Assembly: GCA_902766095.1 (NCBI GenBank) | Contig: CACXCN010000080.1 | Coordinates: forward strand, 1-35,743 | DNA length: 35,743 bases | Direction: 5' to 3' | Source of the DNA: an uncultured Selenomonas sp. | GTDB lineage: Bacteria > Bacillota > Negativicutes > Selenomonadales > Selenomonadaceae | Part shown: piece by piece, positions 20,834-35,743 of the stretch | How the letters are laid out: each line of letters begins with the position of its first letter | Numbering within the stretch: position 1 is the stretch's first letter | Made by a program: the position numbers and the translations under genes | Notes under the pieces: generated by a model | What the model was told of the DNA's origin: nothing | Databases searched by the model: none | Seen by the model: only the letters and a program-made list of their open reading frames with translations

Positions 20834-20853
20834 AAAAGATACTCCTTCCCTTT

Positions 20854-20878
20854 AATCCTTCTCCCTAGGAGAAGGATT
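20854..20878 (-). repeat. Perfect 11-bp palindrome before DUF4127
   Basis: AATCCTTCTCC and its exact complement (20854-20864 and 20868-20878) are separated by three bases. It lies six bases past the stop of the preceding gene and directly before the DUF4127 ribosome site. No U tract follows on the minus strand. The CCTTCxCC core resembles the palindromes at 26923-26945 and 35638. Confidence 0.6.
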
Positions 20879-20883
20879 TATAT

Positions 20884-26860: not shown

Positions 26861-26922
26861 CCCCCTTTGTTAAGATTTTACCATAGTCAAAGGATGTATA
26901 CAGATGTATGTTTCAAATACTC

Positions 26923-26945
26923 AGTCTTCCCCTCAGGGGAAGGCT
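26923..26945 (-). repeat. CTTCCCC/GGGGAAG palindrome after the membrane-anchored unknown
   Basis: A 10-base inverted repeat with one imperfect pair (26923-26932 and 26936-26945) and a three-base loop begins three bases past the stop of the preceding gene. It resembles the left part of the repeat at 35638-35687. It could act as a terminator, but the following minus-strand sequence is not a clean U tract. Confidence 0.55.
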
Positions 26946-26948
26946 CCT

Positions 26949-34285: not shown

Positions 34286-34340
34286 AAAAATATACCCCTG
34301 GATAAGATGGTGAAGAGCCTGTCTCATCTAGGGGTATATT
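34286..34340. terminator. Convergent terminator between fprA and the PD-(D/E)XK gene
   Basis: The arms AATATACCCCT/AGGGGTATATT (34289-34299 and 34330-34340) flank a 30-base loop. On the minus strand a run of five T overlaps and follows the second arm (34286-34290), fitting the end of the 34391-35311 gene. On the plus strand the following ATTATAATG is weaker but could serve fprA. Confidence 0.65.
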
Positions 34341-34390
34341 ATAATGCCGAAATCTCGTTTCAATAAACTGCGTCTCTGTCCGCACAGCCT

Positions 34391-35311
34391 TTATAGAATT
34401 CCGTTGACTCTCCCCAGTTCGCGGACTTTCTCATTTGTCCAGCCGACAATCTGTGCTATCGTATCCGTCGGAATGCCGTGCTTCAGCATAGCAAGAATGG
34501 TATCCTTACGGCCTTCCTCACGGCCACGTTCTATTCCACGTTTTTCAATTCCTTCACTCAGATTGCACATTTCAGCTACCCCCTTTTCCAGTTTCGGCGT
34601 CGTCTGTATGCCGAAATCCTGTCGAAGTGTCTCGACTTTCTCATCTTTGCTGACGTTGTCTACGAATAAGAGATTCAGCATCCTCAGTACACCTTGGAGC
34701 TCTGTATATTTCTTCGTCCCCAGACATACCAGTACCGGAGTTATCAGGTCGTAGTCGGCTTTCGGTGCCTTGGCATTGCCGACCACGTTCTCTTCCTGCA
34801 TGTGATAGCGGGTGATGGTGTAGGCCCATTCCTCGGTCGGTTCCATACATACCCAGATAGTATAGACCTTCTCAATCTTGCCATATTCCGCCTTGACGAA
34901 TACCGTTCCGTACTGGCTCGATATCATGCGGCAACCGTAGAACACGGCCCGCTTCAGTATCGGATAGCCGGGGTGGAACTCGTTCTGCGCCTCGATGTTG
35001 ACAATGAGCCGGATCAGCTTGCCATCGACCGGGGCTACCGCGTTGAACCGGATGTCGAAGAATACGGTTCCCTCGATTGCCGATTTGTCCTCGACATGGG
35101 TGCTCTCGATCTTCGTCTCCCCCAGCATGACCGTCACCTTGCCTACCTCGGGGCTACCTTGTATGTATTTGTTGACGATGTCGTATGTGCTGCAGTTGCA
35201 GAACTCTTCCGTGCAGTCCTTCAGAATCTGTGCCAATATGCCCTTCTCGGACAACACCTGCTTGCACTCCGCATCGTATCGGGCCTTGCGCTCTTGCTGC
35301 TTGCTTGCCAC
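34391..35311 (-). CDS. PD-(D/E)XK nuclease family protein (Rpn/putative transposase type)
   Basis: This 306-residue protein matches the Rpn/PDDEXK_2 group, which is annotated as putative transposases or recombination-promoting nucleases and is often multicopy in Negativicutes. The N-terminal nuclease core shows FFDIRFNAV and RLIVNIEAQNE, where the acidic residues and Glu-x-Gln take the place of the D...ExK active site. YPILKRAVFYGCRMISSQ follows. The C-terminal part has the typical charged stretch IEKRGIERGREEGRKDTILAML and GIPTDTIAQIVGWTNEKVREL. The start is a GTG with GGGAGGTG seven bases upstream. I see no terminal inverted repeats next to it. It lies beside a cluster of short repeats. The catalytic state is not certain. 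Confidence 0.85.
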   Translation of the reverse strand: MASKQQERKARYDAECKQVLSEKGILAQILKDCTEEFCNCSTYDIVNKYIQGSPEVGKVTVMLGETKIESTHVEDKSAIEGTVFFDIRFNAVAPVDGKLIRLIVNIEAQNEFHPGYPILKRAVFYGCRMISSQYGTVFVKAEYGKIEKVYTIWVCMEPTEEWAYTITRYHMQEENVVGNAKAPKADYDLITPVLVCLGTKKYTELQGVLRMLNLLFVDNVSKDEKVETLRQDFGIQTTPKLEKGVAEMCNLSEGIEKRGIERGREEGRKDTILAMLKHGIPTDTIAQIVGWTNEKVRELGRVNGIL

Positions 35312-35426: not shown

Positions 35427-35481
35427 GAGCCTTCAGTGGCCCCCCTGGGCAGGTGGATGCGAAGCTGACGAAAAAGGTGTT
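35427..35481 (+). repeat. Short dispersed repeat, copy 1
   Basis: It begins GAGCCTTC and ends with a 32-base core (35450-35481) that matches 29 of 32 bases at 35656-35687 in the same orientation. A C-rich/G-rich inverted segment (GGCCCCCCTGGGC) lies near its left side. Confidence 0.75.
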
Positions 35482-35538
35482 TAACTAAGTCAGATAAAAT
35501 GCTTAGTCTATATGGCCTCATAAAGCCGAAAAACATAA

Positions 35539-35587
35539 GCATCCCCCTTTGGGGGAGGAGGACCGCGCTAGCGGTGGTGGGGGTGGC
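35539..35587. repeat. GC-rich palindromic repeat segment
   Basis: CCCCC/GGGGG arms around a TTT loop (35542-35554) are followed by the palindrome ACCGC-GCTA-GCGGT (35562-35575) and a GGTGGGGGTGG tail that can also pair with the leading CCCCC. The composition differs sharply from the flanking DNA. Confidence 0.65.
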
Positions 35588-35637
35588 GAGCCTCAAAAAC
35601 TACTCGAGTGCAACCGCTAAAACGGCCCACACTCACA

Positions 35638-35687
35638 GAGCCTTCCCCTCAGGGACAGGTGGCAGCGAAGCTGACGAAAGAGGTGTT
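35638..35687 (+). repeat. Short dispersed repeat, copy 2
   Basis: It begins GAGCCTTCCCCTCAGGG and ends with the same 32-base core as copy 1 (35656-35687). Its left part resembles the palindrome at 26923-26945. Confidence 0.75.
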
Positions 35688-35743
35688 CCGCAAGGCTAAA
35701 GAACATGACTTATCATTATGGCCACTATAGCCTGATTGATGTG

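Follow-up and report, generated by a model that had tools for sequence, protein, structure and literature searches.

The repeats at the end of contig 80

The window, i.e. the whole stretch of 35,743 nucleotides that was analysed, is contig 80 (CACXCN010000080.1) of a 94-contig, 2.34 Mb genome of an uncultured Selenomonas sp. At its right end, a segment of short repeats (35427-35743) lies next to a divergent Rpn-like gene of the PD-(D/E)XK type (34391-35311, minus strand; TIGR01784 28.2 bits against a cut-off of 52.1, PF12784 18 against 27.4). This gene is judged to be located outside the element. Just past its 3' end, an inverted repeat, ATATACCCCT...AGGGGTATAT, was recognized by eye at 34287-34343, which is possibly a terminator.

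The initial annotation had described a 32-base direct repeat with a different palindromic unit between its two copies, and both are present. The two cores (35450-35481 and 35656-35687) are 206 bases apart and identical at 29 of 32 positions, and the similarity reaches beyond them (71% over 78 bases, 35440-35517 versus 35646-35723). The pattern GCGAAGCTGACGAAARAGGTGTT with up to three mismatches matches twice in the window and never in 100 shuffled sequences. The unit in between (35536-35590) occurs once in the window, and its 21-base hairpin core yields one match there and none in the shuffles. The arm model, R1, is based on 33 arms from this genome and its relatives, all of which match by construction; the between-unit, one of these 33, scores 67.6 bits with it at 35536-35584.

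The segment combines arms of two families, A and B, each with two arm types, T1 and T2. All its parts are read on the plus strand. It begins with a degenerate T2-type arm of family A (35427-35482) that contains the left copy of the direct repeat and was assigned by pattern and similarity. The between-unit (35536-35590) is a T1-type, i.e. left, arm of family B with hairpin 1 at 35542-35556, hairpin 2 at 35562-35575 and the inner end GGTGGCGAG. It is followed by a spacer of the short B form (35591-35637) with ACTCGAGT (35602-35609) and CGGCCCAC (35623-35630). The next part is a T2-type arm of family A (35638-35687; R1 17.4 bits), comprising the right copy of the direct repeat with hairpin 2 at 35663-35673. 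The remaining tail (35688-35743) also occurs with the arm copy beside an Rpn gene on contig 73. The copies in the window are incomplete: the between-unit and its spacer have no right arm, and the right-hand copy is truncated at 35743, where the contig stops. When the pieces of the window were folded as single-stranded DNA, their z values against shuffles were -1.22, -1.27 and, for the degenerate left arm, 0.60; only the spacer region 35593-35637 stands out (z -2.83).

Fragments resembling the left part had been noted near 26923-26945 and 20854-20878. Both exist, but each is a single hairpin similar to hairpin 1 of an arm, with no strand assigned (26919-26947, R1 10.4 bits, E 0.18; 20853-20879, R1 23.1 bits). 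In the window, a tRNA is the sole Rfam match at gathering level, and four repeat loci yielded no Rfam match up to an E value of 1.

Copy number and architecture in the genome

A genome-wide search, as proposed along with the repeats, found both the direct repeat and the between-unit to be multicopy. The dominant, near-identical repeat is the between-unit, the T1 arm of B: among 61 matches listed, 42 reach at least 64 bits, and 40 of these are at least 95% identical over the aligned part. For the right-hand direct repeat, the T2 arm of A, 50 matches were listed at E<=10, of which 13, including two in the window, have E<1e-6. A T1 arm of A as query had 59 matches with E<=0.01, and many of these are in fact arms of B. 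Across 16 stretches taken as a fixed sample (320 kb in total), five arm-model matches of at least 24 bits were detected. For at least 12 of the 42 between-unit copies, a contig end is no more than 100 bp away.

Full copies are inverted pairs. A full B copy (about 205 bp) is composed of AAGC, two hairpins, GGTGGCGAG, a spacer, CTCGCCACCCC and an unlike two-hairpin arm in inverted orientation. This two-arm design is present in 16 distinct full B copies. A full A copy (about 155 bp) pairs a T2 arm with a T1 arm in inverted orientation. Among the 20 family A T1 arms listed, 9 are paired with an inverted T2 arm, 7 continue directly into a B element and 4 have neither. Nine of these 20 carry GTAG just inside the T1 arm, a motif absent from the window copies. 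Hairpin 2 of the T1 arm reads ACCGC-loop-GCGGT; the letters of its T2 counterpart are variable. Among 15 distinct T2 arms retrieved with one pattern, 11 have CGTC on the opposite strand at the base of hairpin 2, as do both window copies; it is not a T1 feature. In addition, three short B units follow one another in tandem on contig 43 (L055:278-530), with a period of 98 bp.

Folding and conservation of the arms

Folded as RNA, one full B copy (-101.2 kcal/mol) and one full A copy (-102.5 kcal/mol) each form one long hairpin. In the 16 distinct full B copies, mean identity amounts to 97.4% in the left arm, 92.5% in the right arm and 73.3% in the spacer, and drops to 42% and 40% outside the copies. 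Arms that are alike around a divergent spacer are a REPIN-like pattern, and the inverted conserved ends fold together around the less conserved spacer as they do in REPINs. Since hairpin 1 appears in two registers in the alignment (A1), a half-swap test was used instead of a covariation count over whole arms. In 13 T2 arms, hairpin 2 has 2-5 contiguous pairs and a loop of 3-4; the mean of 4.3 contiguous pairs compares to 1.5 when the halves are swapped between arms (140 swaps).

Placement and occupancy

Genes were predicted with a home-made caller, one of whose 16 training frames is antisense to a recognized gene. All 48 arm sites of the own genome, with neighbouring A and B arms of one site counted apart, lie outside the genes predicted in this way. 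Of 31 sites with both neighbours, 25 are between tandem, 5 between convergent and 1 between divergent genes; mostly, the arms are downstream of a gene.

The impression of short mobile-looking intergenic repeats was borne out by presence/absence differences between sister species. All four of G173, G175, G176 and G177 have an element at one site. In a syntenic stretch, a second site is occupied in G173 but not in G175, and for a third the reverse holds. At a further site, G173 and G177 have an element, and that of G175 is degenerate. The empty sites are not base-exact, and when a G175 island was used as occupancy query, most of the region was non-syntenic. Each of these differences may be a gain or a loss. 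L148:19700-20000 (G175) and L149:9900-10190 (G173) agree in their arm types, but not in their inner ends and spacers; judged from the one flank compared, they may be a shared site that looks as if its inside had been exchanged. By eye, no consistent target-site duplications were seen in the occupancy comparisons, the family A T1 arms or the copies of G170.

Distribution in the family and beyond

In the survey of the family with R1, about 32 candidates per genome were scored, i.e. the arm counts per genome are lower bounds. At E<=0.001, R1 matches 97 of 189 family genomes, 66 of the 99 good ones and 21 of 30 genera. A stricter query, the 103-base B sequence, matches 21 of the 189. The exact T1 pattern was found in 35 stretches: a single assembly of an uncultured Selenomonas accounts for 24, and the other 11 are labelled Selenomonas, Selenomonadaceae, Clostridiales, Clostridia or Oscillospiraceae. 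The exact B-arm pattern has no match in the genome_contigs collection, from which the own or very near genomes may be absent, and none in viral contigs. Likewise, one A copy has no match in phages. With one B copy, 18 Rhizobium plasmid records were retrieved that match 24-30% of the query, the right-arm part only, at about 79-84% identity. These matches extend over 55-70 bases of L059:1630-1699 (B right arm) and are taken as convergence or a distant REP.

Extra hairpins in the arm linker

One element is common to G169 (L215) and G170 (L218:7380-7440), with aligned flanks that are 96-98% identical. The G170 copy has a 25-base palindrome, AGAAACATGCC-GGT-GGCATGTTTCT, between hairpins 1 and 2, which is absent in G169. 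Overall, the G170 copy exceeds that of G169 by 22 bases, and its hairpin 2 is altered on the 5' side. Related hairpins of the type GGTTGCC(A/G)GTGGCAACC are located just behind hairpin 1 at seven loci of the own genome (L021, L029, L038, L044, L050, L102 and L123), which include both element families. At these seven loci they are preceded by a GCGC-type hairpin or a trace of one. Two loci of other species (L078 and L247) contain similar linker hairpins; one further match in the own genome, L187, looks unrelated. Because the G170 palindrome and the related hairpins of the own arms sit in the same linker, this linker looks like a repeated acceptor of extra hairpins.

The centre of the linker palindromes reads GCC(A/G)GTGGC.

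Candidate partner enzymes

The initial annotation considered a role of the neighbouring Rpn-type nuclease in mobilisation worth testing. Rpn genes were found in 127 of the 189 family genomes. Arms and Rpn genes occur together in 76 genomes, arms alone in 21, Rpn genes alone in 51 and neither in 41. The pooled association is weak and positive (odds ratio 2.9, Fisher p 0.001; Spearman 0.37, p 2e-7), and a 66-genome genus without arms contributes to it. Within genera, with genus limits read from genome order and arm counts being capped near 32, none of seven computable correlations is significant at 0.05: five are positive and two negative, the lowest p is 0.06 (g6, n=14) and g2 comprises three genomes only. 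Thirteen genomes with at least 10 arm matches are devoid of an Rpn match, and 11 with at least six Rpn matches of an arm match. Local enrichment is not observed either: in 12 arm-bearing genomes, arm-model matches with E<=0.01 are present at 5 of 30 Rpn loci (102 kb) versus 8 of 30 AMP-binding control loci (117 kb), the 30 loci being unevenly spread over the 12 genomes, one of which has no AMP-binding match. This means that the expected co-occurrence was found in the pooled genomes, but neither locally nor significantly within genera. The own genome has six further PF12784 matches, four of them without arms. One gene (L032) has a 19.9-bit arm match nearby that resembles coding sequence, and the Rpn gene on contig 73 is flanked on both sides by arms in direct orientation (L031:962-1017 and 2397-2442). 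For Rpn proteins, toxin-antitoxin and anti-phage roles have been described, and Zhong et al. consider them as transposases 'highly unlikely' (excerpts of PMC10327210). Neither this published argument nor the control loci, the 13 arm-rich genomes and the missing within-genus correlation fit a nuclease that mobilises the repeats, for which its adjacency in the window, the flanked gene on contig 73 and the pooled odds ratio could be put forward. Such a role is extremely unlikely; the adjoining Rpn-like nuclease is probably not the repeats' mover.

A classical REPIN would be moved by a RAYT-type Y1 transposase of the same genome. The inverted design, the variable spacer and the compensatory changes in the hairpins are as in REPINs (excerpts of PMC3116915), and Y1 genes are found in 72 of the 189 family genomes. 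No Y1 gene tied to the repeats, as REPINs have it, was detected in the own genome or in several arm-rich genomes. The only Y1 gene of the own genome adjoins a TnpB-like frame whose hairpin ends, compared by eye, are other and shorter ones. Moreover, G031, G035 (one contig) and G134, with at least 32 arm matches each, and G147, with at least 25, have no Y1 match. G016, G017 and G133 (at least 27, 22 and 32 arm matches; completeness 83, 91 and 92%) have neither an Rpn nor a Y1 match. With unlike ends at the own Y1 gene and several arm-rich genomes without Y1, a RAYT partner is not supported, and we regard this explanation as very unlikely. Somewhat easier to envisage, though still rather unlikely, are MITEs of an IS630-like or other DDE insertion sequence. 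In G170, 3 of 20 copies are units of 102-103 bp with the ends TATACTC...GAGTATA, the left end being present in 6 and the right end in 9 copies, and these ends may point to a DDE-type MITE in this species. Against this explanation, the ends vary among species and families, and no target duplication was resolved by eye.

Mobile elements or RNA structures

We conclude that the repeats are best read as non-autonomous REPIN/MITE-like elements, which we consider probable. It is likewise probable that this segment represents a cluster of incomplete copies from two related miniature non-autonomous mobile element families. A full element is a pair of a T1 and a T2 arm in inverted orientation with complementary inner ends and a variable spacer, and either strand can form a single long hairpin that bears side hairpins. 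Copies would spread because a trans-acting enzyme recognizes the folded arms, either in a single strand or in a cruciform, and the conservation of the arms would reflect this recognition. Copy number, the inverted two-arm design, arm identity, the pairing kept in hairpin 2, the folding of full copies, intergenic placement, the distribution in the family and the occupancy differences in G173, G175 and G177 argue for mobile elements. On the other side, a transposase with such ends was not found among the Rpn and Y1 candidates examined, no target-site duplication was seen, the pieces in the window, taken by themselves and apart from the spacer, are hardly more stable than shuffles, and presence/absence could be due to loss as well as gain. 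Furthermore, alike arms with drifting spacers could also come from selection on RNA.

According to this last alternative, the arms are mainly functional RNA structures at 3' ends, i.e. transcript stabilizers or terminator-like hairpins under selection, and mobility is past or minor. The location of 48 of 48 sites outside predicted genes, the 25 of 31 tandem sites mostly downstream of a gene, the hairpin that is kept despite letter changes and the one site common to four species are in agreement with it. It accounts less well for sister species that differ in presence/absence, near-identical copies specific to species, arm identity that is longer than a hairpin requires and the lack of an Rfam match for the repeats. 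Altogether, we consider it unlikely. The reading as mobile elements can tentatively be extended: the family as a whole might have a modular hairpin system, in which structure rather than letters is recognized by an enzyme other than Y1 or Rpn and in which the linker takes up extra hairpins. This extension is possible, albeit doubtful.

Comparison with known systems

The repeats are real and extensive, and they belong to a general kind that is already known. Bacterial MITEs such as RUP are 100-300 bp long, non-autonomous and intergenic, and have inverted ends. The elements described here share all these properties, but differ in that neither a parent insertion sequence nor a target duplication has been identified. 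What is known about REPs and REPINs rests largely on Proteobacteria and RAYT enzymes. REPINs are REP doublets that form hairpins (PMC3116915, excerpts). The Selenomonas elements resemble them in their inverted conserved ends, variable spacer, whole-unit hairpin, intergenic location and compensatory changes (PMC3116915, excerpts). In contrast to REPINs, they have two hairpins per arm, their arms are of unlike type and no RAYT partner is evident. For CGTC-tagged REPs, too, no dedicated transposase is known and heterodimers have been described (PMC3733652, excerpts), and here a CGTC is seen on the opposite strand at the base of hairpin 2 in both window copies and 11 of the 15 T2 arms, though not as a feature of T1 arms. 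Differences concern the stem of 8-9 bp and loop of 4-5 reported there (PMC3733652, excerpts) versus 2-5 pairs and a loop of 3-4 here, as well as the two hairpins per arm in the Selenomonas elements. In the excerpted main texts, Firmicutes are not mentioned among the phyla with CGTC-tagged REPs (PMC3733652), nor is Selenomonas in the RepRanger paper (PMC12306157). In the open-access literature searched, no prior description of these elements in Selenomonadaceae was found.

Because many contig ends of this assembly carry the repeats, they matter when genomes of these gut bacteria are assembled. A repeat family that is widespread in Selenomonadaceae, conserved in structure and without an evident partner enzyme would constitute a second, independent REP/REPIN-like system. 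Such a system allows one to ask what moves the elements and why their hairpins outlast their letters.
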